DNA from: a virus
DNA: 64,000 nt
Reading direction: 5' to 3' (one strand)
IMG/VR virus record: IMGVR_UViG_3300036045_000523
Span: 1 to 64,000 of that record
Below are positions 6,331 through 21,993 of the stretch, piece by piece. The first letter of the stretch is position 1, and each line of letters starts with the position of its first letter. Under the pieces are notes generated by a model that was given only the letters and a program-made list of their open reading frames with translations, ran no database searches and was not told where the DNA came from. Made by a program: the position numbers and the translations under genes.

Positions 6331-6358
6331 AACCATCTGCGGATATCCGCAGATGGTT
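6331..6358. terminator. Perfect 28-bp palindrome between convergent genes
   Basis: The arms AACCATCTGCGGAT and ATCCGCAGATGGTT meet with no spacer, 4 bp after the stop of the small acidic gene and before the stop of the convergent gene at 6373. A two-way terminator is the simplest reading. It shares CTGCGGAT with the hairpin at 2641-2663. Confidence 0.6.
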
Positions 6359-6372
6359 CTGTGAAAGTCTAG

Positions 6373-7005: not shown

Positions 7006-7009
7006 ATTG

Positions 7010-7109
7010 AAACCCTATGTAATAGTTTTGACCTATTACTAAGTATTCCCAGGTTGGCAGGGGACTTTTAAGGTTGCTAAGCTCAAGCTGAAACCTAACA
7101 GAGACGCAG
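7010..7109 (-). repeat. Left copy of a 100-bp inverted repeat
   Basis: Reverse complement of 8609-8708 with about five mismatches. It ends directly before the start codon of the gene at 7005, just as the other copy ends before the start at 8712. The two copies bracket the genes 7113-7310 and 7303-8445. It probably carries a promoter or leader, and the pair could support inversion of the segment between them. Confidence 0.85.
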
Positions 7110-7112
7110 TCG

Positions 7113-7310
7113 TCAATTTTTTAAATCCTTATATACTTGCTTATAAAGCTGAGAATAGTCTGTTGCTTTAAGTTTATTATCTTTTGAAAGGTTAGCAGCA
7201 GAGTTTTGATAGCCTTGAAGAAGTTGAATAAAATCTTTTTCTGTGATATCTGGTGATTCTTCCAAGATAGATTTAGCATAATCCTTTGCATTGTCAATAA
7301 AATTAGCCAT
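7113..7310 (-). CDS. Small helical protein overlapping effector C, candidate partner
   Basis: A 65-residue, mostly helical protein. Its start overlaps the last codons of the effector-like gene 7303-8445 by 8 bp, so it is translated with it. It may be an immunity protein or chaperone, as for the overlapping pair at 6072. No known domain is visible. It lies inside the segment bounded by the 100-bp inverted repeats. Confidence 0.5.
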   Translation of the reverse strand: MANFIDNAKDYAKSILEESPDITEKDFIQLLQGYQNSAANLSKDNKLKATDYSQLYKQVYKDLKN

Positions 7311-8445
7311 ATTTAGCTGCTTCTTTGTTTATAGTATCTGTATGTGTCCCGTCTAGAAATTCTGAAGCCTGTTTAAGATAAGCATCTAAATGTTTGTTTT
7401 CAAACATTTTGTTTAAATAATCTTTGATTATTGGCTTAATCTTAGATTTATTTTGATAAATTGTTGCCTCCGGAATATATTGTTTAGCTACTTTTTGCGC
7501 GTAATCAACCGCAAATGCTTGAGCATCCTCAATTTTGAGCTTGCTTTGGGACATTTTCTGAATTACCATAACTAAACCTTCTTCAATTGGGTCTGGGCCT
7601 AAGTCAGAATACCCTATACGCTTGGCTATTTGAGGAGAAGTCTCACCAACCATTGTTTGTACAAGTGTATGTATACCATCATGAGGAATCAATCCAGTAA
7701 TTGGATACCCTCTTTCTTTTAACCATTTAATGGTTTTTTTTGCAGTTTCTTCAGGAGAAGGCGGAGGCGCTTGGTTTTTTCCTTCTAAATTTGCACTTTT
7801 ACTAGGCAATGACGTATCAACGTTATTTTTGGCGGCACTTTTACCCTTGTTTTTCGCACCTTTATCCTCCTTAGTACTTACATTGCTGGCGCTATCAGTC
7901 TTTGAAGCAAGCGGTGTTTTTGAGGATTTGCTTTTGCCCTTGCCCTTCTCAATCAAATCTTTAACAATTTCTTTCTGCTGAGGTGTCGGTTCATGATTAC
8001 ACCTAGTTTTTTCCCCAGATTTGGTTTTTAGTGGTAGACAAGTACCACCACAAGCAAACCCCTTTTTACAATTCTTCTTTTTGGCAGTAGCAACAAATTC
8101 AGGTTCCTCAAAGTTTGTTGCCTCTATTTCATCCCGGTTAATTGGGGAGTAGCTAACGTTGTTGGCAGTAACAGTAAATTCGTAACGTTTCGTTAATGAA
8201 GGTGAAATAATATCGATAAATATGCCTGTAATTTTGTTGTCCTGGACTCGGACATTCTCAAATCCATCAACACCGTCGGCGTAGGATGATTCAATTATTG
8301 CTTTGAGTTGCTCTCCAGATTCATCAAAATTGATATGTCTAAGCTGATTGATGACATCCCAAGGGGCAACTGATTCTGCAAAATTAATCCCGTTGTCCGC
8401 TATAAGGTGTTCACGTAGGTTTTGAAATAGCGTTGCAAGTACCAA
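7303..8445 (-). CDS. Effector-like protein C: shared N-domain, Cys motif, unique C-terminus
   Basis: The 380-residue protein shares residues 1-120 with proteins A and B (starts MVLATLFQNLREHLI; B starts MVLSMLFQNLREHLI). The Cys motif is a variant with a longer last spacing (C126, C132, C136, C149), followed by PTPQQKE. A Ser/Lys/Ala-rich linker (about 165-235) leads to a C-terminal domain (about 240-380) with HDGIHTLVQ and AFAVDYAQKVAKQY that has no counterpart in A or B. The activity is unknown. The linker and unique end fit a delivered effector with a swapped C-terminus. Confidence 0.58.
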   Translation of the reverse strand: MVLATLFQNLREHLIADNGINFAESVAPWDVINQLRHINFDESGEQLKAIIESSYADGVDGFENVRVQDNKITGIFIDIISPSLTKRYEFTVTANNVSYSPINRDEIEATNFEEPEFVATAKKKNCKKGFACGGTCLPLKTKSGEKTRCNHEPTPQQKEIVKDLIEKGKGKSKSSKTPLASKTDSASNVSTKEDKGAKNKGKSAAKNNVDTSLPSKSANLEGKNQAPPPSPEETAKKTIKWLKERGYPITGLIPHDGIHTLVQTMVGETSPQIAKRIGYSDLGPDPIEEGLVMVIQKMSQSKLKIEDAQAFAVDYAQKVAKQYIPEATIYQNKSKIKPIIKDYLNKMFENKHLDAYLKQASEFLDGTHTDTINKEAAKYG

Positions 8446-8564
8446 AGAACTCTACCTAATTCCTCATGCCACATTTTAACCACCGATTGTAAGGTTTGGT
8501 GAAATTAACCCCAGAAAAGCGCGATCGCTCGGCATTGGGCGGGAAGACCCAAACCTTAACTAGT

Positions 8565-8576
8565 GCGGATATCCGC
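8565..8576. repeat. Short palindrome sharing the terminator core
   Basis: GCGGAT|ATCCGC followed by AGATGG matches the centre and one arm of the palindrome at 6331-6358. It lies upstream of the second 100-bp repeat and may be the remnant of a terminator copied with it. Confidence 0.4.
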
Positions 8577-8608
8577 AGATGGAAACAACAAAAAGACGCA
8601 GTGGTCAG

Positions 8609-8708
8609 CTGCGTCTCTATTGGGTTTCAGCTTGAGCTTAGCAACCTTAAAAGTCCCCTGCCAACCTGGGAATACTTAGTAATAGGTCAAAACTGTTACA
8701 TAGGGTTT
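8609..8708 (+). repeat. Right copy of a 100-bp inverted repeat
   Basis: Inverted copy of 7010-7109. Its first bases also form the right arm of an 8-bp hairpin (8594-8616, AGACGCAG/CTGCGTCT). It runs up to 4 bp before ATG 8712 and so forms the leader of the restriction-like gene. Confidence 0.85.
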
Positions 8709-8711
8709 AAT

Positions 8712-9887
8712 ATGGGTTTCACTGAAGATTTAGGTAAATTGTCTGAAAGAGTAGCTAGCAGACTACACGTTGTCGTCGGCGAAGAAAACACCAAGGCAGC
8801 ATTCATATCACCTTTCTTAGGTATTCTAGGATATGACACAACTGACCCGACCGAGGTAATACATGAGTACTTTGCTGATTTTGCTACACCTGGGAAGGTT
8901 AAGCCAAAGAAGGTAGATTACGCGATCGCAATTAACAGTAAAATAGTAATGCTAGTTGAAGCCAAGGCCTGTACTGAGAAACCAGAAGTCCACGATGGGC
9001 AATTAAAGTTTTACTTCAACGCAGTACGTACAGCACGAATTAGTATTGTTACCAACGGAGTTGAATATCTCTTCTTTACTGACCTTGAAGACAGTAATAT
9101 GATGGACAAAGAGCCATTCTTCACCTTCAACATTTTAGATTACGGTTCTAAGGAAATTGAAAATCTCAAGCTTTTCCACCGTGATAATTTTGATCCAACC
9201 AAAATAAAGAATGATGCTGAGGAGATACTTTACTCTCAAGGTATAAGCGGACTAGTGGATAGTATTTTAGTTTCCCCCTCAGACAAATTTGTTCACTTTT
9301 TGATTAAGGAGATGGGAACGGTTGCATCAAAGTATGAATTTAGAGGTGTGGTTACTGCGAACATAATCAAGAAGTTTCATCCTATTGTTAAACGTTCCCT
9401 TCAAGCTAGCTTAGTGTCACTCATTACTCGGTCGGTTAATCAGGAGATGACTCATCCTGAGAGTAGTACCGTTTCTCCACCGGAAGTAGATGAACTAGAG
9501 ATTGAGTTAGAAATTGAAGAGAAAAACAATATTGTCACCACTGAAGAAGAGTTGTCAGCCTTTGCTAAAATTCAGGCGATCGCCAAAACGTCAACTAAGT
9601 TCAAGCTTGAACCCCAATCCAAGGATACTGTGTCATACTTTGGCATTAATCTTGGGAAATCAACCTGGTGGTTCATGCGATTGTACTTATCCTCAGCTAA
9701 AAAGAGCTTGATTGCGAGGATAAATCCTGAGGAAGCGAAAACTCTTGCACCTAATTTTACAATTCAGGAAGTACCAGGAGTTAATGGCGAAATACTATCA
9801 AAGGTTGCTATTGGTTCAATAGAAGACTTAGACAAGCTTAAGCCTTTGATTGTCAAGTGCTACGAACTAGAAGCTGCAAAACATTAA
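8712..9887 (+). CDS. Type I restriction R-subunit N-terminal (HsdR_N)-like protein
   Basis: The 391-residue protein starts at ATG 8712 directly after the repeat leader; the reading frame is open from 8496 but that part is the repeat itself. Residues 15-160 follow the HsdR_N pattern: TKAAFISPFLGILGYD, then D69 (VDYAI) and E83-x-K85 (LVEAKA), a PD-(D/E)xK nuclease core. No helicase domain follows and no hsdM or hsdS gene is near, so this is a stand-alone nuclease-like protein. The middle (about 265-300) is acidic and the last 90 residues look like a separate small domain. A defence role is possible but not shown. Confidence 0.65.
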   Translation: MGFTEDLGKLSERVASRLHVVVGEENTKAAFISPFLGILGYDTTDPTEVIHEYFADFATPGKVKPKKVDYAIAINSKIVMLVEAKACTEKPEVHDGQLKFYFNAVRTARISIVTNGVEYLFFTDLEDSNMMDKEPFFTFNILDYGSKEIENLKLFHRDNFDPTKIKNDAEEILYSQGISGLVDSILVSPSDKFVHFLIKEMGTVASKYEFRGVVTANIIKKFHPIVKRSLQASLVSLITRSVNQEMTHPESSTVSPPEVDELEIELEIEEKNNIVTTEEELSAFAKIQAIAKTSTKFKLEPQSKDTVSYFGINLGKSTWWFMRLYLSSAKKSLIARINPEEAKTLAPNFTIQEVPGVNGEILSKVAIGSIEDLDKLKPLIVKCYELEAAKH

Positions 9888-9897
9888 ATGGATGACG

Positions 9898-9925
9898 TAA
9901 ATGATGCCAGCTGGCATCATTTACC
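9898..9925. terminator. Perfect 28-bp palindrome after the restriction-like gene
   Basis: GTAAATGATGCCAG and CTGGCATCATTTAC meet with no spacer 10 bp after the stop at 9887. Probable terminator. Confidence 0.55.
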
Positions 9926-9929
9926 AAGA

Positions 9930-11180
9930 AATTGGGTTTAAAGCCCCGTCCTTATAGGACGGCTTTTCTTTGTTTTAAAAATAAACATTGTTTTTTCGTA
10001 GTTTTACATATAATAGTAACATGAAAACACTAAAGTTTAAGTTCTATCAACATAAGCGGAATAGACATCTCAAGCAGATGATTAACGCTTCTGGGTTGAT
10101 TTATAACCATTGCATAGCTCTACATAAACGATATTACCGGATGTGGGGTAAACATTTAAACTGTGCTTTCCTTCAGTCTCATATTGCCAAGTTGAGAAAG
10201 CGAAATCGATTTTGGCAATCGGTAGGTTCTCAAGCAGTACAAGATATCTGTCAACGTATTGATAAAGCCTACCAGTTATTTTTTAAGCACAATAAGAAAG
10301 GAGTTAGACCACCAGGATTTAAAAAAGTCAAGAAATATAAATCATTCACTCTTAAGCAAACTGGTTATAAGTTTTTAGGTGGTAACAAAGTCAAAATAGG
10401 GAACAAAGTTTATCAATTTTGGAAGTCTAGAGAAATTGAAGGAACAGTCAAGACATTAACTATTAAACGCACTCCATTAGGGGAGTTGTTCATGGTAGTT
10501 GTAGTTGACGACGTTGCGAATAAAGATGTCAGATTCACGACTGGTAATGTAGCGGGATTTGATTTCGGGATGAAAACGTTTCTCACTTGCTCTGATGGTT
10601 CCAAGATAGACTCACCTCAATTTCTTAAGCAATCACTCAATGTAGTCAAAAAAGCCAGTAGACAGCACTCCAAAAAGTTGAAAGGGTCAGCTAATCGAGA
10701 GCGGGCAAGAAAGAATTTAGTACGCAAATATGAGGATATTTCTAACGCTAGACGTGATTGGTTCTGGAAATTAGCCCACGACCTCACCAATAAGTTTGAT
10801 GTGCTGTGCTTTGAAACACTCAATCTTAAGGGGATGCAACGTCTTTGGGGACGCAAGATATCAGACTTAGCCTTTGGAGAATTTCTGCAAATTTTAGAGT
10901 GGATTGCCAAGAAAAAAGGCAAGCAGGTGATATTTATAGATCAATGGTATCCGTCTAGTAAGACTTGTTCTAGTTGTGGACACGTTTTAGAAAAGCTGGA
11001 CTTGTTAGTAAGAGAGTGGCGTTGTCCGTCCTGTCAATCGATCAACGGGAGGGACGAAAACGCAGCTAAGAATATTTGTGCAGTTGGGGCATCAACTGTT
11101 GGGTTAGATGATGTAAGACGGTATAAAACCGCAATTGTTGTTTGAGCCTAGAATCTCCGCACATTCTTGGGCGGAGAGTA
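9930..11180 (+). mobile_element. IS605-type element carrying TnpB only
   Basis: The TnpB gene is framed by a hairpin at about 9940-9968 (GTCCTtataAGGAC inside AAAGCC...GGCTTT), typical of the left end of IS200/IS605 elements, and a hairpin at about 11150-11175 (CTCCGC...GCGGAG) after the stop. There is no tnpA transposase gene, so movement would need one supplied elsewhere. The TnpB guide RNA normally comes from the right end. The exact ends are inferred from the hairpins only. Confidence 0.6.
10021..11145 (+). CDS. tnpB: TnpB RNA-guided endonuclease (IS200/IS605 family)
   Basis: A 374-residue TnpB with the complete RuvC-like site: D181 in GFDFGMKTFL, E265 in CFETLNLKGM and D345 in GRDENAAKN. 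The zinc ribbon is intact (C316, C319, C335, C338). TnpB cuts DNA at sites chosen by a guide RNA from the element's right end and so keeps the element after excision. ATG 10021 gives the usual N-terminus (MKTLKFKFYQHK). Length and motifs indicate a working protein. A defective inverted copy lies at 11835-12175. Confidence 0.92.
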   Translation: MKTLKFKFYQHKRNRHLKQMINASGLIYNHCIALHKRYYRMWGKHLNCAFLQSHIAKLRKRNRFWQSVGSQAVQDICQRIDKAYQLFFKHNKKGVRPPGFKKVKKYKSFTLKQTGYKFLGGNKVKIGNKVYQFWKSREIEGTVKTLTIKRTPLGELFMVVVVDDVANKDVRFTTGNVAGFDFGMKTFLTCSDGSKIDSPQFLKQSLNVVKKASRQHSKKLKGSANRERARKNLVRKYEDISNARRDWFWKLAHDLTNKFDVLCFETLNLKGMQRLWGRKISDLAFGEFLQILEWIAKKKGKQVIFIDQWYPSSKTCSSCGHVLEKLDLLVREWRCPSCQSINGRDENAAKNICAVGASTVGLDDVRRYKTAIVV

Positions 11181-11182
11181 TG

Positions 11183-11809
11183 TCAATAAGTTGTTGTAAA
11201 AATCTGTTCGGCAGTCAGATTTAAATCTGAGAATGTTGGGGAGACTATACGCTCGTTTCCCCTAAACTGTTTACTGCGGTACTCCCCCTCATCATTTAAA
11301 TAATAAATGGAAATTGTTGGCTGTTTGGGGTCGCCTATTAATTCCTTACTACCGAAAGCGGCATAATCCACAATCCAGTATTCTTGGATACCCATTTCTT
11401 CATAATCAGCAAACTTTTTGTGATAATCATCTCGCCAATTAGTACTAACTACTTCGATTACCAAGGGTATTGAATCAGAGTTACTAATTGTTGATTCTTT
11501 TTTCCATTGTGGTTCGTTTACTAAATTGGACAAATTTAATAAGGGGATATCAGGAAAATAACCCGAATTTTTATTTTTTGGTTTTACTAAAACTGTTTTT
11601 GGAATGCCGTAATTAAGCTTGAGGCGATGACATTCTAGCGTTAATATTTTTACTAAAAATGCAATGATTTCCTCATGGTCGCCAACTGGTAGAGGCATTT
11701 GAATAACTTCTCCGTCGTATAATTCGTAACGAATATTTTCAGGTTGTGTTTCTAAAAACTCTAAAAATTCATCGAATGTGAATAGTTTTTCTAAGGGTTG
11801 AATAATCAT
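11183..11809 (-). CDS. Uma2-family (DUF820) putative endonuclease
   Basis: The 208-residue protein matches the Uma2 family, a PD-(D/E)xK-like family highly expanded in cyanobacteria and often mobile. Visible marks are FDEFLEFLETQPENIRYEL near the N-terminus, GYFPDIPLL (the Asp), PLVIEVVSTN (the Glu), and DYEEMGIQEYWIVD. The function of these proteins is still unclear. It sits between the TnpB element and the TnpB remnant. Confidence 0.88.
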   Translation of the reverse strand: MIIQPLEKLFTFDEFLEFLETQPENIRYELYDGEVIQMPLPVGDHEEIIAFLVKILTLECHRLKLNYGIPKTVLVKPKNKNSGYFPDIPLLNLSNLVNEPQWKKESTISNSDSIPLVIEVVSTNWRDDYHKKFADYEEMGIQEYWIVDYAAFGSKELIGDPKQPTISIYYLNDEGEYRSKQFRGNERIVSPTFSDLNLTAEQIFTTTY

Positions 11810-11834
11810 GATTGCTCCTTATTTGTATTTACTA

Positions 11835-12175
11835 ATTTGTTAATGTTTTCACCGTTCCTTCCCAACTTCTAGACTGACAAAATTGATAAACTCGATTCCC
11901 AATCTTAACCCTATTGCCACCTAAAAACTTATATCATGCTTGTTTGAGGGTAAATGATTTATACTTCTTAACTTTCTTAAATCCTGGTGGTCTAACTCCT
12001 TTCTGATTATGCTTAAAAAACAATTGATAGGCTTTCTCAATCCGTTGACAAATATCTTGTACTGCTTGAGAACCTACTGATTGCCAAAATGTATTACGTT
12101 TTTTCAACTTGGCAATATGAGATTAAAGGAAAGTACAACAATGTTTTCATGTTACTATTGTACACAAAAAAAATT
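11835..12175 (-). pseudogene. Internally deleted TnpB gene remnant
   Basis: Read on the minus strand, this stretch aligns with TnpB at 10021-11145: the start region with its ATG, then a jump to the part matching NCAFLQSHIAKL, continuing through SVGSQAVQDICQRI and the PPGFKKVKKYKSF region to about residue 150. About 40 residues near the N-terminus and everything after residue 150 are missing. It is inverted relative to the intact copy. The remaining bases up to 12318 hold no gene that I can see. Confidence 0.75.
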
Positions 12176-12318
12176 GTACAATAGTATGAAGAAACGATGC
12201 TTATTTTCAAGTAGAAGAGTACGAACTTCACTCGCGCTTGACGCCCATACTGCTACTTAATTCTAGTGTATTAGAGAGTAGTGCCCCGGAAAAATACTAT
12301 TAAAATAAGAAATTCAAG

Positions 12319-12570
12319 GTGTCTATTTACACGCACCAATACTCGTCTGGAATAGGCAAGAAAATTCTAATTAGTCGCAAAGATGAAAGTACATTTATTT
12401 CGTGGGCTGACAAGCAACGCATTAAAAATGAACTAGTTGGCGAGGAATATACGGCTATTGAAGCTTATCCAGCAACTCAAAATTTGGTGAATTTTGCAAA
12501 TGTTTATTGGTTGTACGTTTTGCCACTAGAAGCTAAGTCGCCGTGGAACAATGCTTGTTCTAGTAATTAA
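12319..12570 (+). CDS. DUF7694-like small protein
   Basis: An 83-residue protein with a GTG start. The pattern ISWADKQRIKNELVGEEY...AIEAYP...NFANVYWLYVLP resembles a small domain (DUF7694) found in phages and plasmids with no assigned function. It lies upstream of the Xis-like gene and may share its transcript. Confidence 0.5.
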   Translation: MSIYTHQYSSGIGKKILISRKDESTFISWADKQRIKNELVGEEYTAIEAYPATQNLVNFANVYWLYVLPLEAKSPWNNACSSN

Positions 12571-12650
12571 CACTTTTATTTTCTGCTATTAAATAACAGA
12601 AATAAAGAAAAATATCTGTCAACATCTTATTGTTATTCTTACTAAAAACT

Positions 12651-12893
12651 ATGCGTCGAAAAGTAGCGCGAGTTGAAATAAATACAGAAGATTTGGTAAC
12701 AATTGCACAAGCATATCAAAAGCTTGGCGTAGGGTACAGCCGTAGTAGTATACTTCGTCGCATCAAATCCGGAGAATGGATCGAAGGTGTGCATTATATA
12801 AATGATGCGCGAACTAATAGTAATTATCGGATAATTAAAATTAATATCCGAGCAGTACAGGAGTTAAGAAAAACTAACTCAGGAGAAAGGTAA
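12651..12893 (+). CDS. Excisionase-like small DNA-binding protein
   Basis: An 80-residue basic protein; I chose ATG 12651 over the upstream TTG at 12630. IAQAYQKLGVGYSRSSILRR is a plausible winged-helix start and GEWIEGVHYINDARTNSNYR resembles proteins that bind DNA beside integrases. It ends one base before the convergent integrase gene. A role as recombination directionality factor is inferred from position, size and charge. Confidence 0.5.
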   Translation: MRRKVARVEINTEDLVTIAQAYQKLGVGYSRSSILRRIKSGEWIEGVHYINDARTNSNYRIIKINIRAVQELRKTNSGER

Positions 12894-14006
12894 TTAACTT
12901 GGAGCTTTAGGTTTACCTTTGCCAAAAACATCCCTGTCAAACTTTTCTCTATAATACTTTTCATCAATCCATGCTCTATAAACCTTGTTGTGGATGACTT
13001 CTTCGTGTCCCATTAATTTTGCTGCTCTGTTTGTAGGTATATCGAATTCAAAGCATCTACGAGCGTAGCAATGCCTTAAATCATAAGCACGAAATGGAAA
13101 TTTTTGTGCCCAAAACCATCTTGCTATTCTTTGCCCTATTGACCGCTTACCGTCTTGTTCAAGACTTATTGGTGGTAAAATAATTTGGTCTAGCCTCCAC
13201 TTGTGTGACCATTCTGGGTACAACGGATAAACTATTCTTTCACCCGTCTTACCTTTTAATACTCTGACTACTGGAAACTCAGTAAAATCTAACTCAAATG
13301 CTTCATGCGATCGCAGTCCATATGTAGCCAAAATACCAACTAACCATCTCCATCCAGGATGCGTGATCGCATTTACTGTTTCTGCAATAAGATTATCGGG
13401 TGGTAGGTTTCTTGGGTTTACAGCTTTGGGGGAATAGCTACCTTTTAGTTCGGTGATTTTTTCAATTCCTGGTAACTCTGCAAGAAGAGCTAATTTTACA
13501 AAATGCTGACAAACTACTTGCCTTGTTTTTGTGTTTGGTTTTACCAACCGAATAACTTCTAATAACAATTCAAGTGTTAGTGTTTCATCTTTGGGCAATT
13601 TTACAAATGCCCTCTGATAACTACTTTCCCATGTTCTTAGGGATTTTATGTTCTTTTCCCGCTTACTCCAAAAATCCTCTTCAAACCGCTCCAGCCAGAA
13701 GCTAACTGGTCTGAATTCAGTTTTGTCTTCCTCTTCAAACCAATCTTCCCAACGAAATTGACCTAACTCCAGTTGAGCGCTAATAATCTTCGCTTGCTGC
13801 TCAGCTGCTTTAATCCCAGCAACACTTGCCTTTAAACCTAAAAATATCCGCTGCTGATAGGGTTTAGTTTTATCAGAGTGCGGTCTTGGGGGAAATGTAC
13901 CCCTTAGCAGCAAAGTTCCACCACGACGCTGCACCGTCACCCTAGTTCCCGCAGCCTTAAGTCTGCTGTTTAATTCCAATAGCTTACCGTCTATATCAAG
14001 TCCCAT
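12894..14006 (-). CDS. Tyrosine recombinase, XisA/XisC-like
   Basis: A 370-residue tyrosine recombinase with R232 (YGLRSHEAF), Y308-D-L-R311-H (AYDLRHCYAR), H334 (LMGHEE) and the nucleophile Y343 (HNKVYRAWI). In most family members the position of Y308 is His. As I recall, XisA and XisC, which excise elements from nifD and hupL in developing heterocysts, also have Tyr there. The start codon lies about 150 bp from the junction with a hupS fragment, with iterons in between. This fits an excisase that removes the left element from hupS. It could also be a prophage integrase. Confidence 0.85.
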   Translation of the reverse strand: MGLDIDGKLLELNSRLKAAGTRVTVQRRGGTLLLRGTFPPRPHSDKTKPYQQRIFLGLKASVAGIKAAEQQAKIISAQLELGQFRWEDWFEEEDKTEFRPVSFWLERFEEDFWSKREKNIKSLRTWESSYQRAFVKLPKDETLTLELLLEVIRLVKPNTKTRQVVCQHFVKLALLAELPGIEKITELKGSYSPKAVNPRNLPPDNLIAETVNAITHPGWRWLVGILATYGLRSHEAFELDFTEFPVVRVLKGKTGERIVYPLYPEWSHKWRLDQIILPPISLEQDGKRSIGQRIARWFWAQKFPFRAYDLRHCYARRCFEFDIPTNRAAKLMGHEEVIHNKVYRAWIDEKYYREKFDRDVFGKGKPKAPS

Positions 14007-14021
14007 TTGTGCCTAAATAAG

Positions 14022-14071
14022 TGACACGATTTGAAATATTTTGACACGATTTGATGTGATTTGACACGATT
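14022..14071. repeat. Three iterons at exact 20-bp spacing
   Basis: TGACACGATT occurs at 14022, 14042 and 14062, each 20 bp apart (about two helical turns), between the recombinase start codon and the hupS junction. The layout fits arm-type binding sites of the recombinase or its directionality factor, or operators over its promoter. Confidence 0.7.
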
Positions 14072-14156
14072 CACAAAGCAAGAAACTATGACATACTAAA
14101 AACCTAAGCCTTATTGCATATGAGTTGTAGGGATTTTTAGTAATTTTAACGAAGCT

Positions 14157-14369
14157 ATTCCACTCCCCTGTACCGTTAGGTGCGTTGACTACCGACCCTT
14201 CAAATACAAGAATATCTAAAGGAATTTTACCAGTAATACATTCCCATAATAGTGTTTTTAAGTTGCTGCCTAGTTCTAGTCCCAAAGACGGATGCCAAAG
14301 TATATTAATACCAAAGTCAGCTACTAAATCACAGGCAGTTGGTTCGTCCGCATTCAAAAAGGACATTGT
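14157..14369 (-). pseudogene. hupS: Internal hupS fragment (uptake hydrogenase small subunit)
   Basis: On the minus strand 71 codons match HupS, the FeS-cluster subunit of the uptake [NiFe] hydrogenase: TMSFLNADEPTACDLVADFG, ILWHPSLGLELG, PLDILVFEGSVVNAPNG and TGEWN. In my memory of the cyanobacterial protein this corresponds to about residues 15-86. The first residues with the GACSGN cluster ligand are missing on the right, and everything after TGEWN is missing on the left. The remaining codons keep an intact frame without stops. I read it as one piece of a hupS gene split by an element on each side, not as simple decay. Both flanks would need to be excised to restore the gene. Confidence 0.85.
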
Positions 14370-14599
14370 ATAGTCACTATAGGACAATTTTATGCCTTAA
14401 GCTCCTACCTAATTTGCTGCGGGGGGATGTGTTTCTTAGGAGTTAGGAGTATACTTTTTGAGGTGCGAACCTGGAACGGACAAAATTGACTGTAATGTAT
14501 GTGGGATAACAGTTTGAGGGTGCGAACCTGAATCGCGATCACACAGTCCCAAACAAAAACAAAATGCGTAGCTGTAAGGTTTGTTGTTAGATGTCACAC
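14370..14599. other. Right-element border region with direct repeats
   Basis: No gene is visible. The region begins at the hupS junction (TATACAATGTCC on the minus strand). GAGGTGCGAACCTG at about 14459 and GAGGGTGCGAACCTG at about 14517 form a direct repeat 58 bp apart. Inverted CTCCTA/TAGGAG pieces lie near 14402-14450. These could be recombinase binding sites of the right element. Confidence 0.4.
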
Positions 14600-14995
14600 T
14601 TATCCAATTGTTTTGATGTATGGATAGTTGAGAATTTTTTGATCGCAGGTCATAAGTTCTATATTGCGGCGGTAGGCTATTGCAACAATAATACGATCGG
14701 CTGGGTCTTTGTGAAAGTCTCCGGGTAATTGGGTGCTGATAATTGCATCGAGTGGATCGAGCGGTTCTATGGTAATTCCAGGTCGAGTTGTTGCAAGTGC
14801 GAACCATTCATTAATGGGAAGGGGGAGGGGTAGTTTCCCATTACTGTGCTTAACTGCGATTTCCCATACAGAAATGGCAGAAACAATAAGGGAATTTTGG
14901 TTTTCGCCTATGGTTAATAGTTTACGTCCACGCTCAGAAAGTTGATCTGGAGTATGGAGCCACCACAGCCAAATATGGGTGTCTAGTAAAATCAT
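14600..14995 (-). CDS. vapC: VapC-type PIN-domain toxin
   Basis: A 131-residue PIN ribonuclease toxin. The acidic residues are visible: D in MILLDTHIWLWW, E in ISVWEIAVK, D in DPADRIIVAIA, and the last acidic position in ELMTCDQKILNY. It would cleave RNA, usually tRNA or rRNA, when free of antitoxin. ATG 14995 overlaps the antitoxin stop (ATGA); an upstream ATG at 15013 is less likely. It lies beside the hupS junction and may stabilise the right element. Confidence 0.85.
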   Translation of the reverse strand: MILLDTHIWLWWLHTPDQLSERGRKLLTIGENQNSLIVSAISVWEIAVKHSNGKLPLPLPINEWFALATTRPGITIEPLDPLDAIISTQLPGDFHKDPADRIIVAIAYRRNIELMTCDQKILNYPYIKTIG

Positions 14996-15231
14996 TGTCC
15001 CAAAGCATCCCATAATTCAGGCATGGGTTCGTCAAAATCTGGAGGAATTGTTATGGGGATTTTGCGTAGGGAATGCTCAGGAGTGCGATCGCGGGTTAAA
15101 TCTATTTCGTCAGAGGTTGGGGTTGGCTGTGATGATGGTAATGTCAGGCTTTGAGCCAAAAGTTGGAGGATGCGTATTCTTTCTGCTAAGTCGAGGCTGA
15201 GGAGTTGTTGTTCTAGTTCTTGATTGCTCAT
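14992..15231 (-). CDS. Antitoxin partner of VapC
   Basis: A 79-residue acidic protein directly upstream of and overlapping the toxin start. LDLAERIRILQLLAQSL resembles cyanobacterial antitoxins of PIN-domain pairs, and the C-terminal half (PPDFDEPMPELWDALGQ) is likely the toxin-binding tail. Confidence 0.75.
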   Translation of the reverse strand: MSNQELEQQLLSLDLAERIRILQLLAQSLTLPSSQPTPTSDEIDLTRDRTPEHSLRKIPITIPPDFDEPMPELWDALGQ

Positions 15232-15391
15232 GGCTTTGCGCTATCATGACTGTGTATTTATTTTAGCGGAAATTTCCAGTGCTTCTGAGTACGTCCGCAG
15301 CGGGTGGAACGAAGTGAAACGACTCATAATTCCGAAGGGTGGCTTGCTGGTGGAATATCCGAAAGAACTTTTTACCTGTGGTAGGAACACC

Positions 15392-15757
15392 CTATTTACT
15401 CAAAACATTTGCAAACGCCATTATTGCTACTTTTATTATTTCTGCTCCGATTTCCGCTCCATATTGCTCGTTTATCGTAGTCGCCAATCCTTGCATGGTT
15501 CCTATTAGCTTTGCTATCCCGTCATCGCTCAATATGAATTGCTGATTCCCGTTTATATGATAGCCACCACAAATATGAGTTTGATTAATTTCAATGACTG
15601 TATCTTTTCTTAAGGCTTCAGCTAGCTGCGATCGCTGCTCCTCCGTCAATCCCTCTACTTTATCTACAATATGCTTTACCCAATCTTCCATAACTATCTC
15701 TAAGGTCTTTAACCTTACTTTAACCCTTTGTTGTGCCAGTTCATTGCTATCGTTCAT
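15392..15757 (-). CDS. Hypothetical protein
   Basis: A 121-residue protein of unknown family. Residues 1-50 are charged helix (VKHIVDKVEGLTEEQRSQLA), followed by a short strand-rich part (HICGGYHINGNQQFILSDDG) and a C-terminal helix (IGAEIIKVAIMAFANVL). It stands alone on the minus strand between VapBC and the repressor. Confidence 0.5.
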   Translation of the reverse strand: MNDSNELAQQRVKVRLKTLEIVMEDWVKHIVDKVEGLTEEQRSQLAEALRKDTVIEINQTHICGGYHINGNQQFILSDDGIAKLIGTMQGLATTINEQYGAEIGAEIIKVAIMAFANVLSK

Positions 15758-15904
15758 GCTAATTTTTGTTTATTAAATACTAAGGGTATCACCCCTCAAG
15801 ACTATTTTATTAGCATAATAATAGCCGTATACTTACAAAAAGTTAACTGTTTATACATTGCAAGTTTTGATAAATTTTATTACATTTAACCTATTATTAA
15901 CCAT

Positions 15905-15967
15905 GCCACTGCGTTGCGGAGGTGTCCTCCGTTGTAGCTTGCTTCCCCCTTAGGGGTGGCACGTGGC
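15905..15967 (+). repeat. Dispersed palindromic element, expanded copy
   Basis: Copy of the 41-bp element (arms GCCACTGCGTTGCGGAGG and CCTCCGTTGTAGCACGTGGC around TGT) with about 22 extra bases before the final ACGTGGC. It lies just downstream of the repressor gene end. Confidence 0.85.
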
Positions 15968-15968
15968 G

Positions 15969-16412
15969 CTATTTGCGTTTTCTGGGCTGAGTAAAGCTAT
16001 CAAGAAGAGTTTGCAATACTGTCATTTTGCTATCTCTCGATAGGTCATTAACCAGGTGAATAATTAAATCTCGTTTTTGCTCGTCAGAGATTTTATCCGC
16101 ATAAGGAATAATTTGATGTGCAGTAAACAGTGCTTGCTTGGCTAAAGGGTTATCATCTTCAATTCCTTGCAGTTCTTGATATAGCGCCGCGAGCGTGTAG
16201 TCCTTTGCTATATAGGGATTACGTGCGATCGCACGCAGTACCTCACCACTGGGAGGGAAACCCCGCTCTACTTTGTTCAGCGTACTAAAACCTATCGCTT
16301 TACCGTCATCTTTGACACATAATGCCGCAAATTTACGTAAATCTAACCCGCTTTTAGCTCTAACATCTGCAATCAATGCCCCAAGCCTTTGTGCCCCATT
16401 CTCGCTTTCCAT
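15969..16412 (-). CDS. CI-like phage repressor, XRE family
   Basis: The 147-residue protein has an N-terminal helix-turn-helix (LGALIADVRAKSGLDLRKFA to STLNKVERGFPPSGEVLRAI) and a helical C-terminal part, probably for dimerisation. It faces the replication genes across a 318-bp divergent region full of GACACA/TGTGTC half-sites. That layout is typical of the lysogeny switch. There is no peptidase domain of the LexA type, so induction would depend on an antirepressor rather than self-cleavage. Confidence 0.75.
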   Translation of the reverse strand: MESENGAQRLGALIADVRAKSGLDLRKFAALCVKDDGKAIGFSTLNKVERGFPPSGEVLRAIARNPYIAKDYTLAALYQELQGIEDDNPLAKQALFTAHQIIPYADKISDEQKRDLIIHLVNDLSRDSKMTVLQTLLDSFTQPRKRK

Positions 16413-16730
16413 AATACTCCTAGTCTACACAAGCGCGTTTATTCTGACACAATTTTTAGATTTGTCAACTCTTTGTGTCTTTTTAGACACACGTACTACT
16501 TTATACTTTGTGTTGCTATTACTTATACAGTGCATAATTGGCTACAATACTATTCACCAATTTAGCCATGCTGCCATGCATCTGCCATTTTACAGTATTG
16601 AACAACACACAGGTATAAACCATCCTTCCGTCATTTGTTTTCAATATAAAACATTTTTACTTATTGTTTATGTATTGACACATCAAAACTGTTTTGTTAG
16701 TATAAGATTATTGTGTCGGCAGAACAAACA
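16413..16730. promoter_or_regulatory. Divergent control region with operators
   Basis: This gene-free stretch separates the repressor from the replication genes. A perfect operator-like palindrome TGTGTCT-tttt-AGACACA lies at 16474-16491, close to the repressor start. Single half-sites GACACA or TGTGTC occur at about 16446, 16677 and 16710. A rightward promoter TTGACA (16675-16680), 17-base spacer and TAGTAT (16698-16703) has one half-site on its -35 box, so repressor binding would block it. Confidence 0.6.
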
Positions 16731-16916
16731 ATGGCGAATAAGCAACCAAAACACAGATTTCCTGCTAAATATCCTGATACTGAAGGTATTGCGTGTAAGA
16801 CGGTGCGAGTTAGCGTGCCGGAATATTTGCAAGCGGAGATTGAAGCGATCGCGCTTGAGTTACATAGAGAGCGAATGTCAGATAAGCCAAAAAACCCTCA
16901 AGGTCAGGGAACTTGA
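16731..16916 (+). CDS. Small basic protein at the head of the replication operon
   Basis: A 61-residue protein starting at ATG 16731; a GTG at 16713 would sit on the predicted transcription start. VRVSVPEYLQAEIEAIALELHRERM resembles a ribbon-helix-helix strand and helix. It is the first gene to the right of the switch and may be a Cro-like or copy-control regulator. Confidence 0.5.
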   Translation: MANKQPKHRFPAKYPDTEGIACKTVRVSVPEYLQAEIEAIALELHRERMSDKPKNPQGQGT

Positions 16917-16947
16917 GAGCTAGATAAACAAAAATTCTAAGGATATT

Positions 16948-18078
16948 ATGACACACGATACAGTATTAGACCGCAGTTATTCTCCATTCGTAATGATAGA
17001 TTTCCAAATTTTGGAGATGGATTTATCTCTAGATGCATTTCGCATTTACGCAGAACTGAAGAAATTTGCTAATCATCATACCAACGATTGCTATCCATCA
17101 TACGCGAAATTAGCGATCGCATTCAAGGGTTCTTACCCTACTTCATCTCCATCTCTTTGGCGAAAAAAGGCGATCGCTGCGATCGCTGAATTAGAAGAAA
17201 AGGGGGTAATAGAAAAAGAATTACGCTTTTTACAAAACGGGGCAAATCGTACAAACCTGTACACTCTCACTCCACCATCTGAATGGAAAAAACCTAGTCC
17301 TGAGTCAGAGCCAAGGGTAGTCTTGAATGATGACTACACCCAGTCCCAGACCTTGACTACACCTAGTCCTGAGCTAGAACTTGGGGTAGTCTCGACTCAG
17401 GTCTCAGGGGGGTCTTGCCACGGGACTCAAACTAGATCCAATATAGAACTATATCCAATTGAACTAGATCCACACGAAGACGCGCGCGCGAAAAATGATG
17501 TTTTTGTTTTTTTAAGTAAAGAAAAAGAAGCAGCCACAGAAAACGCGACTACGACAGAAATCAAAACAGAACAACTCGACAAAAAAGAATTTAATTCGTC
17601 AGGTGCAATTATTCCGGGGCTGGCACTAGAAAATAGTGCTGTATTCAAAAGTGAGGAAAGGATGCGATCGCGGTATTTGAGCGATAGCGAGGTACAGGAG
17701 TATGCGGAAGTGTGGAATCGGTTTGCGCCGGGTTGTTGTCCGCGCTGTCCAAAGTTGGATATAAGGGCGAAGAATCGAATAAGGCAGTTAGCGAAGGATT
17801 TTAGTTTGGTTGAGTTTGGAGGTGCGGTGTGTGCGGTTAGGGAGTCAGTTGAGGGGCGATATTACCGAGAACAGAGATTTACTTTCTTCAGGTTTATCGA
17901 TAACGGGCATACGGCGAAAATGTTTAGCGTCCACGCTGATTTATGGGAGAGGGACGAAAGTTACAGAAACAGAGTGACGGGCAAGGAAGAAACGACCATC
18001 GCGTCTGAAATGAGTGATGAAGAGGAAATGTTGATGATTTTGTTTGGGAACAAGAAAGGGTATGAGGGGATGCGATGA
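16948..18078 (+). CDS. Replication initiator-like protein with N-terminal helix-turn-helix
   Basis: The 376-residue protein has an N-terminal winged-helix-like region (FQILEMDLSLDAFRIYAELK, then PSYAKLAIAF and KKAIAAIAELEEKGVIEKE), as in plasmid and phage initiators that bind the origin. A long Ser/Thr/Glu-rich linker (about 110-225) follows, then a C-terminal domain with CCPRCPKLD that may bind metal. Its stop overlaps the start of the helicase loader-like gene. The pairing resembles the O and P genes of lambdoid phages. The function is inferred. Confidence 0.55.
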   Translation: MTHDTVLDRSYSPFVMIDFQILEMDLSLDAFRIYAELKKFANHHTNDCYPSYAKLAIAFKGSYPTSSPSLWRKKAIAAIAELEEKGVIEKELRFLQNGANRTNLYTLTPPSEWKKPSPESEPRVVLNDDYTQSQTLTTPSPELELGVVSTQVSGGSCHGTQTRSNIELYPIELDPHEDARAKNDVFVFLSKEKEAATENATTTEIKTEQLDKKEFNSSGAIIPGLALENSAVFKSEERMRSRYLSDSEVQEYAEVWNRFAPGCCPRCPKLDIRAKNRIRQLAKDFSLVEFGGAVCAVRESVEGRYYREQRFTFFRFIDNGHTAKMFSVHADLWERDESYRNRVTGKEETTIASEMSDEEEMLMILFGNKKGYEGMR

Positions 18079-18701
18079 TTTGTCAGAAAGTGTATGAGAA
18101 AATGTTTGATTTGCTTGAGATGAATTACGGGAAGACGCTAGCTTCTCCAATCAAGCACATTTGGAAAGACTTTTTAGACCAGGAATTAAGCGACGAAGAA
18201 TTTACAGAAGCAGTGCGTCATGCGATTTTGCATAGCCGATTTATGCCAACAGCAGGCGAACTTGTTGACTATATCAACGGTGGTAAGGAATCAAAAGCGA
18301 TCGCTGAATGGCAAACTATTCTTACCGCTGCGGCGAGCAATCACCAACATTCAACCGAACTACTTACTTACTCTTCTTTGCGATGCCGTGTTGCTCTTCA
18401 GTCCATTGGCGGACTTAACGCCGTTGCGATCGCTGAATCAGACTATCAGCGCTCAATTTTGCAAAAACAATTTATTACCGTTTTCTGCCAATGCTCCGAC
18501 AAGGATACCAAAGTCTTGCCTCAAGCATCTTCACAGCCGAGCCACTGCGTTGCGGAGGTGTCCTCCGTTGTAGCACGTGGCTCGCGCAATAACGCTTCTA
18601 CAACCCCCGAAACTGCCTCACCTATGCCTAACTATGTCAAGCAAAAATTAGACGCCTTGAAGGCGAAAATCAGCCAGCCAACTCAACGGTCAATTTTGTA
18701 G
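18075..18701 (+). CDS. Helicase loader-like replication protein with an inserted repeat
   Basis: The 208-residue protein starts inside the last codon of the initiator-like gene. Residues 1-70 resemble phage helicase loader/inhibitor proteins (KHIWKDFLDQELSDEEFTEA, then HSRFMPTAGELVDYI). The middle is variable. A full 41-bp palindromic element (18541-18581) is read in frame as SHCVAEVSSVVARG at about residues 156-169 and is followed by a Pro/Thr-rich end. The insertion lies in a probable linker and need not harm the loader domain. Confidence 0.55.
   Translation: MICQKVYEKMFDLLEMNYGKTLASPIKHIWKDFLDQELSDEEFTEAVRHAILHSRFMPTAGELVDYINGGKESKAIAEWQTILTAAASNHQHSTELLTYSSLRCRVALQSIGGLNAVAIAESDYQRSILQKQFITVFCQCSDKDTKVLPQASSQPSHCVAEVSSVVARGSRNNASTTPETASPMPNYVKQKLDALKAKISQPTQRSIL
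18541..18581 (+). repeat. Dispersed 41-bp palindromic element, inside a gene
   Basis: Consensus copy with intact arms around TGT, read in frame by the helicase loader-like gene. Confidence 0.95.
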
Positions 18702-18722
18702 AGAAAAATATATCTTTTCCTG

Positions 18723-18751
18723 TTGACCGATTAAGACGGATGTATTATATT
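18723..18751 (+). promoter_or_regulatory. Promoter, TTGACC-17-TATATT
   Basis: A -35 box TTGACC and -10 box TATATT with a 17-base spacer lie just after the loader-like gene. The predicted RNA start near 18758 supports the start codon at 18779 for the next gene. Confidence 0.5.
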
Positions 18752-18778
18752 ATGTACAAAGTGCATAAAGAGGAACGA

Positions 18779-18973
18779 ATGCAAGAGAGAGATAAGAAAG
18801 GAAAGTTTGAGAGAGTGTGGAATGCGGAAGCGAAGGTGGTGTACTTGCCGTTTAGCGTAAAGATAAAAGCGATCGCAGCGATCGCGGATAAGCACCCCCA
18901 TCCGGAAAAATTTTTAGAGAGTGTGACGAGAGTAGCGAGAGTGTTAGCGATCGCGGATGGCGTTGAAATATAG
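18779..18973 (+). CDS. Small basic protein of unknown function
   Basis: A 64-residue protein. ATG 18779 is chosen because AGAGGA lies 5 bases upstream and a promoter lies at 18723-18751; the upstream ATGs have neither. The sequence is basic, with a C-terminal helix (LESVTRVARVLAIADG). A DNA-binding regulator is possible; no family is recognised. Confidence 0.5.
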   Translation: MQERDKKGKFERVWNAEAKVVYLPFSVKIKAIAAIADKHPHPEKFLESVTRVARVLAIADGVEI

Positions 18974-18983
18974 GAGGTTAACA

Positions 18984-19805
18984 ATGGACTTACAAGTACA
19001 AATGGAACGAGCAGAGCTAGAGTATTTTTGCGAGAAATCAGCGGAGAATAAAGCCAAATACGATGCAGCGAGAACAGCTTATCTAGAAAGCCAGTCGCTT
19101 GCGGAGGAGGACTCCGTTGTAGCTTGCTTCCCCGTTGGCGAAGCCTGCCTTTATGGCTTAGGGGTAGACAGAAGCGCACTACCTCTAAAGGCTGAACCTC
19201 TAGCAATGTCGGAGTTTGATGTTGTAGAAGACGAGAACGGATGCCAATGGATTGTCAGGAAGTCTGACAAAGCGGCTTTTGCTTCCCAATCAGCACTGGC
19301 TTGGATGTGCCAGATATCGCAAGCGGACATTAGCAATATAGTAAGGCGCTCACAAAAATCGCCACAGGGCTTGCGTGACTTAGACTTGAGCAATATGGGG
19401 AAGGTAAATAATCCGAATAGTGGAAAGGATATTGATTGCATACCGGCTGACGTATGCGCGGACATAATTTATTACTATGCGTTTGAAGCAAGAGGTCACG
19501 AAAAACGTAGTAATGCAAAAGCGCTGTGCAAGGCAATGTTACGAGCTGGAGCGACAGTATTTATTGCAATGAAAGCGGGACATGATTTAGCGGTTGAAAA
19601 TGCTGAGTTAGCACAAAAGATTTATGCAATGGAGGATCGCCTTACGAAGCTTGAGCAATGGTCATTGCAGCGCTCACAGCTAACAGGTGTTAGATCCAAA
19701 AACGAATACGGGGAGACAGAAGCGCAAGCATATTTCCGCAAGCGCGATAATTGGTCGGAGATGTGGCGTTATACCCGCGAGTTTATCCGCAACGTAGGTA
19801 AATAG
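18984..19805 (+). CDS. Antirepressor-like protein, paralogue of the 43.5-kb gene
   Basis: The 273-residue protein starts at ATG 18984 behind a strong ribosome site (AGGAGG). It shares a domain with the product of 43461-44288: a recognition-helix-like part (SQSALAWMCQISQADISNIV here, a matching stretch there), a block near DVCADIIYYYAFEARG / EVCAAIIGYYAVESK, and a helix before a coiled region. Such regulators are common on cyanobacterial elements. An expanded palindromic element (19090-19150) is read in frame near residues 37-57. It may counter the CI-like repressor, but that is inference. Confidence 0.5.
   Translation: MDLQVQMERAELEYFCEKSAENKAKYDAARTAYLESQSLAEEDSVVACFPVGEACLYGLGVDRSALPLKAEPLAMSEFDVVEDENGCQWIVRKSDKAAFASQSALAWMCQISQADISNIVRRSQKSPQGLRDLDLSNMGKVNNPNSGKDIDCIPADVCADIIYYYAFEARGHEKRSNAKALCKAMLRAGATVFIAMKAGHDLAVENAELAQKIYAMEDRLTKLEQWSLQRSQLTGVRSKNEYGETEAQAYFRKRDNWSEMWRYTREFIRNVGK
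19090..19150 (+). repeat. Dispersed palindromic element, variant, inside a gene
   Basis: GCCAGTCGCTTGCGGAGG starts this copy, the centre is altered, and the end carries the TTGCTTCCCC extension also seen at 15905-15967. It is read in frame by the antirepressor-like gene. Confidence 0.75.
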
Positions 19806-19932
19806 AAAAACTACCACCCAGCAAATCACTTGCTAAATGGCAGCAGAATAACTAACTATATTTTGCTGGGTGGTTCCAATAATTACAACGACACAATTAC
19901 TTAGGAACTTAGAAATATGCAGTTTCAATTTA
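19804..19932 (+). repeat. Duplicated 129-bp leader, copy 1
   Basis: Nearly identical to 20138-20266. It contains a 13-bp stem (ACCACCCAGCAAA/TTTGCTGGGTGGT) with a loop of about 40 bases, then ACGACACAATTACTTAGGA and the first codons of the next gene. It is the leader of 19917-20138. Confidence 0.9.
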
Positions 19933-20138
19933 TAAAAGATATGGCGATGGCGCTAGTCACTGCCAAAGAAGATTACCCAGTTGATTTTGATAGTGCTTGG
20001 CAATGGCTTGAATATAGCCGAAAGGATAATGCAAAAACTGCTTTTTTGAAAATGGATTTTGTAGAAAGCGTAGATTATATTTCCCTTAATCTTAAGGAGT
20101 CGGCTCCTGGTGGGGGTTTGACGCATCGGCCAGCATAA
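19917..20138 (+). CDS. Truncated phage antirepressor N-terminal (MSV199-like) domain
   Basis: The 73-residue protein shows the domain found at the start of phage antirepressors: YPVDFDSAWQWLEYSRKDNA followed by FLKMDFVESVDYI. In full-length proteins the chain continues past GGRPTEDI-like residues; here it stops at GGGLTHRPA. The C-terminal domain has been replaced by the second leader copy, which starts at its stop codon. It may still be made, since it keeps its own leader and start. Confidence 0.6.
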   Translation: MQFQFIKDMAMALVTAKEDYPVDFDSAWQWLEYSRKDNAKTAFLKMDFVESVDYISLNLKESAPGGGLTHRPA

Positions 20139-20266
20139 GAAAAACTACCACCCAGCAAATCACTTGCTAAATGGCAGCAGAATAACTAACTATAATTTGC
20201 TGGGTGGTTCCAATAATTACAACGACACAATTACTTAGGAACCTAGAAATATGCAGTTTCAATTTA
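20138..20266 (+). repeat. Duplicated 129-bp leader, copy 2
   Basis: Direct repeat of 19804-19932 with only a few differences, including the stem-loop and the first five codons (MQFQF). It is the leader of the coiled-coil gene at 20251. Confidence 0.9.
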
Positions 20267-21945
20267 CAGAAGTAGCTAATATCCAAGAGCAGATTGCAGC
20301 ATTAACAGAACAATTACAACAACTTACCGCGAGTATTGCCCCATATGCAGAATGTGAAGCGATCGCATCAGAATTAGTAGCAAAAGTAGAAGAACACCGC
20401 TCTTGTATGAGAAGTAAGGGGTTAGCGGAGGAAAGCTTGGCGAATTGGGCGATCGCGTTATACAAAGCTGGTAGCAATAAGGAGTTCCCCATCGTTGAAG
20501 CGACTGGTAGCCAGTGGGTAGAATTTGAAGAAACTGACATTCTTAAGCGTAAGATAGAAGAGCTTATAGCATTAACAGATAGTTTGGATCAAGAATTACA
20601 GGAAGAAAGGCAGTATACGACAGAAATTTTAGAAAGGATAGGATTAATTGAAGAAAATGAAAAACTGGAAAAAGAAGTGTCAACCTTGCATATGGCTGCA
20701 AATGAATTAGAGAAAAAGCTAGATTTTTTTAAAAATAGTATTAGAGAAACAGATTCTATAGAAAAAGAACTTGCAACATTACGTAAAGAGAACGAAGACT
20801 ATCAAGCAAGATTTGATGGTATAAAGGCACAGCTAGAACAAGCTGAATCAGAGCGGTCTAGACTTGCACAGGAATTAAATAGAAAAAAGAAAGAAGAAGC
20901 AAAACAGACAGATAAGATTGCAGAATTACTAAATTTTGGTCGAGGCGATGCAAAGAAAGCTAGAGATAAGATGACCATGATTACATGGGAGGATATTGAA
21001 AGAGCTTGCGAGTCAGACCCTAAGAAAATACAAGCATTGTTAGATGAATTGGCGACAAGTAGGGCAGTATTAAGGAAAGAACTTAGCGATCGCATAGAGT
21101 TGCTATTGGTAAAACACGCTATAGAAACAGGGGATAAAAGCTGCTTTCAAAAAATACCGCAAGTTTTAAGAATGTCTGTTGAACGAAAATACAAAGAATT
21201 TCAAGAAGACGTTAACGCAAGCCACTGCGTTGCCGAGGTGGAAATTGTTGAGGAAGAAGAAACGAAATCATTACAAGTTAATGATATTGTAAGTACTCCA
21301 TCAGGAGGCTGTGGCACAGTTGAATCTATAAATAAAGATTCGATTACAGTTAGACAGTTGGTGAACCAAGAAATTGTAGAAGCTACGTATCAAACAAATG
21401 AATTAGTTTGGGTATCTTCTCACCCTGGGGTCGGCGCCCAGGAAGAGAGATTGGAAACAATTACAGTGCAAGTAAATGAGGCAACAACTGTAAACAAATA
21501 TGTTGAGTTTATGGGAAAAATTACCCGGTCTACGGTTGCTTGGAATAACTTAACTTGGGAAGTGATACGCGATTTATGCGATCGCTCGATATACGGACTA
21601 GACGAATTAAGAAGAGTTAAATTAGACAGTGAATTTGAGCGCGATCGCAGGGAAATGTTATTTAACGGAAGAATAGCTAAATTACTTTTAGATTACATTG
21701 ACTGGACTGGTGATAGTAGGGATTTAGCTTGGATTAGTGAAGAATTGCGATCGCAGGTTGAGGCATTACTAGGAAAAAAGCCTAAACAATTAGAACAAGG
21801 GGTAGTCGTTGAGTTGGATGGACAACCTTATAAAGTGCTACATCATGACACAGATACAGGATGGGTGGATCTAGTAAATGGCGCGAAGAAAAAAGTATCC
21901 GCGTATATCAAAGAGATATCTGTTCAAAACTTGGCGGTTGCGTAA
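20251..21945 (+). CDS. Coiled-coil protein with two copies of an ITWEDI-type domain
   Basis: The 564-residue protein is not from a family I recognise. Residues 1-230 are coiled coil. An 80-residue domain begins at MITWEDIERACESDPKKIQ (about 244) and a second copy at LTWEVIRDLCDRSIYGLDEL (about 430). A third copy ends the methyltransferase at 21994-23424. Between and after them lie two small barrel-like stretches (LQVNDIVSTPSGGCGTVESI and VVVELDGQPYKVLHHDTDTG). A half palindromic element encodes SHCVAEVE at about 325. It is transcribed with the methyltransferase, 48 bp apart, and may bind DNA with it. Confidence 0.5.
   Translation: MQFQFTEVANIQEQIAALTEQLQQLTASIAPYAECEAIASELVAKVEEHRSCMRSKGLAEESLANWAIALYKAGSNKEFPIVEATGSQWVEFEETDILKRKIEELIALTDSLDQELQEERQYTTEILERIGLIEENEKLEKEVSTLHMAANELEKKLDFFKNSIRETDSIEKELATLRKENEDYQARFDGIKAQLEQAESERSRLAQELNRKKKEEAKQTDKIAELLNFGRGDAKKARDKMTMITWEDIERACESDPKKIQALLDELATSRAVLRKELSDRIELLLVKHAIETGDKSCFQKIPQVLRMSVERKYKEFQEDVNASHCVAEVEIVEEEETKSLQVNDIVSTPSGGCGTVESINKDSITVRQLVNQEIVEATYQTNELVWVSSHPGVGAQEERLETITVQVNEATTVNKYVEFMGKITRSTVAWNNLTWEVIRDLCDRSIYGLDELRRVKLDSEFERDRREMLFNGRIAKLLLDYIDWTGDSRDLAWISEELRSQVEALLGKKPKQLEQGVVVELDGQPYKVLHHDTDTGWVDLVNGAKKKVSAYIKEISVQNLAVA
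21221..21240 (+). repeat. Left half of the palindromic element
   Basis: GCCACTGCGTTGCCGAGGTG matches the left arm of the element; the right arm is gone. It is read in frame as HCVAEV in the coiled-coil protein and is probably the remains of an older insertion. Confidence 0.7.
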
Positions 21946-21993
21946 GAATATGGCGATGTCGAACGCCATCGCCGTCCGCAAATAATAAAAAAT

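Follow-up and report, generated by a model that had tools for sequence, protein, structure and literature searches.

How a piece of the hydrogenase gene hupS came to stand between two apparently mobile stretches of DNA, and whether the gene could still be made whole, are the questions raised by the window examined here, that is, the stretch of 64,000 nucleotides formed by positions 1 to 64,000 of a 66,116-bp virus record in IMG/VR (IMGVR_UViG_3300036045_000523). To answer them, it would be important to know whether the piece is still under constraint, whether its ends coincide with sites that are used by elements in other genomes, and what kind of element lies on each side.

An in-frame segment of hupS

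The minus strand of the window (14369-14157) encodes ∼71 HupS codons, T16 to N86, without a stop (translation TMSFLNADEP...NGTGEWN). A first-pass annotation of this DNA had claimed 71 stop-free HupS codons running from T-M-S-F to T-G-E-W-N, and this was borne out both by the translation and by a structure-database match, in which the solved [NiFe] hydrogenase small subunits 7uur/7utd matched the island over its full length (E 7e-29). Protein identity between the island and HupS of sequenced Nostocales was at most 90%, and it was 83% to one Nostoc HupS. No HupS relatives were found in IMG/VR by protein search. Within the 66,116-bp record no other hupS pieces could be identified, and the complementary parts and the second att sites also lie outside it.

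The island was examined for signs of decay (stops, frameshifts and relaxed constraint), and it did not have the character of a decayed fragment. It contained neither frameshifts nor stops, its pairwise dN/dS was 0.04-0.12 against 15 relatives (dS was saturated for three more), and three of its residues were private to the window. The first-pass annotation had also noted unrelated sequence beyond both ends of the island, which holds and can be refined: on both sides, HupS homology ends exactly at one of two recurrent element insertion sites. We are highly confident that the two interruptions of hupS fall at natural element sites, referred to below as site 1 (right) and site 2 (left). The coordinates of all features are given in Table 1.

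Table 1. Features of the window around the hupS island and in the two flanking elements
Feature	Position	Strand	Remarks
Left (site-2) element, visible part	1..14156		Runs on beyond the record start
Phage head maturation protease-like gene, left element	1..1344	-	phrog_976 E=6e-57
Excisionase-like small protein, 87 aa	12630..12893	+	phrog_539 excisionase E=0.0027; gene converges on that of the recombinase
Tyrosine recombinase of 370 aa (predicted excisase, left element)	12894..14006	-	phrog_1 integrase; Pfam Phage_integrase below cut-off
Site-2 core region GAGTGGAATAGCTTCGTT	14148..14165	-	Aligned to direct repeats GAATGGAACCGCTTTGCC (G487) and GTCATTGGAATCGCTTTGC (G443)
hupS island, codons 16-86	14157..14369	-	In frame, T-M-S-F ... 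G-E-W-N
Site-1 crossover core ATGTC (hupS Met17-Ser18)	14362..14366	-	Common to both ends of many site-1 elements
Site-1 arm TCCTATAGTGACTATA, end of the right element	14369..14384	-	Inverted repeat TATAGT-G-ACTATA
Right (site-1) element, prophage, visible part	14370..64000		Record continues to 66116
PIN-domain (VapC-like) toxin gene	14600..15013	-	Between the prophage genes and the arm; PF01850 E=1.7e-13
Portal protein	35889..37712	+	PF06381 E=5.5e-33, phrog_146
Tail sheath	41608..42813	-	phrog_17610 E=1.6e-20
Neck/tail completion protein	44292..44720	-	phrog_26 E=4.5e-35
Major capsid protein	46450..47397	-	PF09950 E=6.8e-17; 77% identical to G003
Head maturation protease	47950..49128	-	phrog_530 E=9.7e-31
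Baseplate J-like protein	58577..59680	-	PF04865 E=9.2e-14, phrog_6
Terminase large subunit	62826..64000 (to 64259 in full record)	-	PF03237/PF17289, phrog_979

Site 1 is a recurrent insertion site

The right break falls at hupS codons 16-20. When 163 genomes of the family were surveyed and 16 of them followed up, the same break was seen to recur in 14 other genomes in all, each of which has the hupS start at another place, and with 14 split genomes seen, site 1 of hupS is a strong insertion hot spot. The elements found there carry inverted-repeat arms, either TTCTATAGTGACTATA or variants of it. The sequence TTCTATAGTGACTAT was present at the same hupS position in G002, G003, G004, G226, G367, G426 and G438, and variants of it in seven more genomes. 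Among the first 79 hupS loci fetched, three were without the gene start and shared the junction of the window (TTCTATAGTGACTATA followed by ATGTC). The first 21-23 codons of hupS were located elsewhere in those three genomes, in two of them on the same contig at distances of 68 kb and 104 kb, and the separated starts ended with the inverted counterpart of the arm. The window likewise has the arm and the ATGTC core at its hupS junction, and the right boundary can be placed inside codon 16, because the arm (14384-14369) overlaps the first base of this codon.

Most site-1 elements have a serine recombinase at the hupS-body end, reading away from hupS. No match to such a recombinase adjoining the hupS-body end was found in the 66,116 bp of the record, and a PIN-domain toxin gene occupies its usual place in the window; G226 is another site-1 element without a serine recombinase at that end. 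In G226:C3 (L123, L144), the body and the start of hupS lie 104 kb apart on opposite strands, and an inversion within the element is possible. It should be noted that breaks of hupS also recur at about codon 206 (two genomes) and at about codon 278 (five genomes), the genomes concerned being G448, G469, G434, G447, G452 and G459 (L128-L141).

The right element is a near-complete prophage

On the right stands a contractile-tailed, near-complete prophage of at least 51.7 kb, in which terminase, portal, capsid, tail and lysis genes form one block; tail lysozyme and endolysin genes are also present, and one att arm is seen in the record. From ∼15.4 kb to the end of the record, it is collinear with the prophage that occupies 24.3-94.5 kb of contig G003:C22 (Cyanomargarita), with some local rearrangement and with protein identities of 44-83% for most genes and lower values for a few. 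These hallmark genes and the collinearity confirm what the first-pass annotation had only described as the look of a prophage. The G003 prophage (G003:C22 21238-95246, L184-L187) splits a flavin-dependent oxidoreductase gene, which we identified by reading the sequence, and hupS of G003 lies 24 kb from there and is split not by this prophage but by an ordinary site-1 element. That a relative of the prophage targets another gene is a new observation. The serine integrase of the G003 prophage stands where that element begins and has the orientation of the split gene; the matching end of the right element falls just past the record of the window.

The channel-like gene (a mechanosensitive-channel-like membrane gene, see below) was used to look for closer relatives of the prophage in 218 genomes of the family, and only G003 was found. 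The nearest relative in IMG/VR, IMGVR_UViG_3300035006_000011, is the G003 prophage itself in trimmed form (100% identical); both ends of this copy lie inside the contig, one of them at a gene start, and the integrase is not included. The channel-like gene (65379-66116 of the full record; L002:3379-4116) adjoins the terminase genes, is 70% identical to its counterpart at the same place in the G003 prophage, and represents unusual phage cargo. Two kinds of repeats were also observed in the right element. A palindromic repeat of 40-47 bp, GCCACTGCGTTGCGGAGGTGTCCTCCGTTGTAGCACGTGGC, occurs in seven places with 90-100% likeness (15905, 18539, 25027, 26377, 27867 and 53129 on the plus strand and 60029 on the minus strand) and may be a miniature mobile repeat, and a direct repeat of 129 bp (19804-19932 and 20138-20266, 98% identical) stands just before the gene at 20251.

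Whether this prophage entered hupS by itself has to be weighed against the alternative that it is a passenger nested in an older, ordinary site-1 element whose serine recombinase was displaced or replaced, in which case the arm would belong to the old element. Phage homology stops at ∼15.39 kb and ∼1 kb with the PIN-toxin gene follows before the arm, as would suit a passenger, but the same phage end in G003 abuts the integration junction of that prophage itself, with the integrase at the opposite end, as is predicted here. A displaced recombinase would also agree with the fact that most site-1 elements have a serine recombinase at just this spot; however, no remnant of a site-1 serine recombinase was present in the 66 kb. 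The different target gene and integrase of the G003 relative count in favor of nesting. Taken together, a nested passenger appears possible but rather unlikely, and we consider it reasonably probable that integration at site 1 was by the right element itself.

Site 2 and the left element

The left break falls at hupS codons 85-88, where the gene is also interrupted in G487 and G443, that is, at a site in a conserved gene that is used by other elements. The boundary of the island lies within the core at ∼14165-14148, and several bases of this core differ from the repeats of G487 and G443. G443 has a complete hupS and a second copy in two parts, codons 1-94 and codons 84-320, which are separated by 25.3 kb; this second copy carries the direct repeat GTCATTGGAATCGCTTTGC (19 bp). 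In G487, hupS is in four pieces, of which codons 15-90 are essentially the island of the window, and the repeat is GAATGGAACCGCTTTGCC (18 bp). The G487 pieces have opposite orientations on the contig, and such cases were treated as likely mis-assembly in a 2016 survey (PMC4874684).

Near this end of the left element, 150 bp from the island and on the same strand as hupS, a tyrosine recombinase gene begins. The recombinases of G443 and G487, which have a like position and orientation and start ∼130 bp after codon 86, are 67% and 65% identical to it, respectively. Residues R232, Y308, R311, H334 and Y343 are present and conserved with G487; XisA and XisC have Tyr in place of the usual His. More distant relatives of 476-515 aa, which may include XisA and XisC, were matched at 31-37% identity, and protein search of IMG/VR revealed no relatives of the left recombinase. 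At all three site-2 loci (the window, G443 and G487), a small excisionase-like gene converges on the 3' end of the recombinase gene, and its 87-aa product in the window is a candidate directionality factor. Small genes of this kind were also observed near ∼10 related recombinases in other cyanobacteria.

The site-2 elements of G443 and G487 thus share with that of the window the insertion point, the orientation, a similar spacing and the small convergent gene. They differ from it in the remaining content: the left element of the window contains one clear phage head gene, at the edge of the record, besides the recombinase and excisionase-like genes, and apart from the products of these last two, none of its proteins had a match in G443 or G487. 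In G414 and G431, recombinases related to that of the left element are found close to prophage-like genes, and a phage origin of this element is therefore likely, but less well shown than that of the right element. A second portal protein at 2684-4285 was considered and rejected, as the match was confined to the end of a long fused profile and Pfam gave no portal domain; the product reads as ParB-like and was left out of the structural genes. The left element also carries a TnpB gene (9988-11145, plus strand) with a second, inverted partial copy nearby (10162-10460 versus 12137-11839, 300 bp, 84%). On the whole, the earlier claim of a mobile element on each side agrees well with these results, since two different elements flank an in-frame island and recombination signatures are found on both sides.

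Proposed excision of the two elements

We think it likely that two independent elements lie side by side at two canonical hupS sites of a heterocyst-forming cyanobacterium and can be excised to restore the gene. The left (downstream) element would use its own XisA/XisC-like tyrosine recombinase (12894-14006) to recombine short repeats around GGAAT, probably aided by the 87-aa excisionase-like protein. The right (upstream) prophage would have integrated through the site-1 arms and the ATGTC core, presumably by means of a serine integrase, which is predicted from the layout of G003 to lie ∼2-4 kb past the right end of the record (66,116). Codons 1-16 of hupS would be expected to the right of 66,116, by the serine integrase and an arm of the CACTATAGAA type, and codons 87-320, together with hupL, would precede position 1. 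The two elements would then be removed separately, each through the recombinase and the att pair that belong to it and in either order, and the joins at ATGTC and GGAAT would restore the reading frame if intact relatives are a guide. The first-pass annotation held that the order of removal may matter; we infer instead that it need not, because the elements are side by side and not nested and have different att cores and different recombinases. By analogy with the hupL, nifD and fdxN elements, which are excised in heterocysts (PMC4874684), excision would be expected to take place in these cells. We also infer the far hupS pieces, the serine integrase of the right element and the function of a restored hupS, and on balance we lean toward the view that both elements excise and restore the gene.

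The ends of the record bear on where the missing parts should be sought. Its first base closes the stop codon of a minus-strand gene, and its last base opens the start codon of another gene on this strand. Since the record ends exactly at gene ends, and the G003 prophage was trimmed in IMG/VR, we regard it as a probable trimmed provirus, whose parent scaffold should continue beyond each end and may contain the hupS parts that are missing here. A circular excised form was rejected, as there was no exact end overlap of 10-299 bp and both junctions are those of the integrated form.

It is improbable, in our opinion, that hupS is permanently dead and the island a relic between elements no longer able to excise. 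No recombinase is visible for the att site of the right element and the site-2 core differs from those of relatives, but the left recombinase retains its catalytic residues; likewise, the three private residues have to be set against an island that lacks stops and frameshifts and has the low dN/dS given above. Moreover, multiply split hupS genes with open frames recur in G434, G448, G469 and G487. An assembly chimera of unrelated phage contigs joined via hupS sequence is very improbable even for a metagenome-derived record, as both joins are recurrent natural insertion sites with a matching att arm or recombinase and the same island layout is found in G487.

Relation to known systems and implications

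Four hupS elements with two position variants, involving serine and tyrosine recombinases, as well as multiply interrupted genes, were reported by Hilton, Meeks and Zehr in 2016 (PMC4874684). The window concerns the same gene, and its left recombinase obeys their rule on position (at the element's start) and on orientation (that of the gene); however, those elements were only hypothesised to be phage remnants (PMC4874684), whereas the right element of the window is a near-complete tailed-phage genome. In Anabaena sp. 90, two elements divide nifH into three parts with a middle island of 273 bp, and the 80-kb element contains a prophage remnant (PMC3542288). The prophage remnants of that strain are without terminase and capsid genes (PMC3542288), whereas the right prophage of the window has terminase, portal, capsid, sheath and baseplate genes. 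Another case of a prophage that splits a development-specific gene is SPbeta in spsM of Bacillus subtilis, which is excised in differentiation so that the gene is rebuilt (PMC4191935); it differs from the window in phylum, gene and phage, and in having one element in the gene.

Because hupS elements and multiply interrupted genes have been published (PMC4874684; PMC3542288), the arrangement alone is less novel than was thought at the first reading. What is new is that a near-complete prophage stands at a canonical junction of site 1, and that the site-2 recombinase has an excisionase-like partner which is conserved. No description of a near-complete prophage in hupS was found in a search that covered mainly open-access journal papers.

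With two elements in hupS, hydrogen recycling in nitrogen-fixing cells probably depends on the removal of both. A more far-reaching and rather doubtful reading is that the developmental excision site of hupS is also the attachment site of a functional temperate phage, in which case phage excision would be the same event as heterocyst gene restoration and a second phage-derived element would also have to go before hydrogen uptake. A near-complete phage genome with the canonical arm at a canonical hupS site makes a phage origin of the heterocyst interruption elements directly testable. The locus also indicates that two unrelated recombination systems can be required at the same time for one hydrogen-recycling gene.
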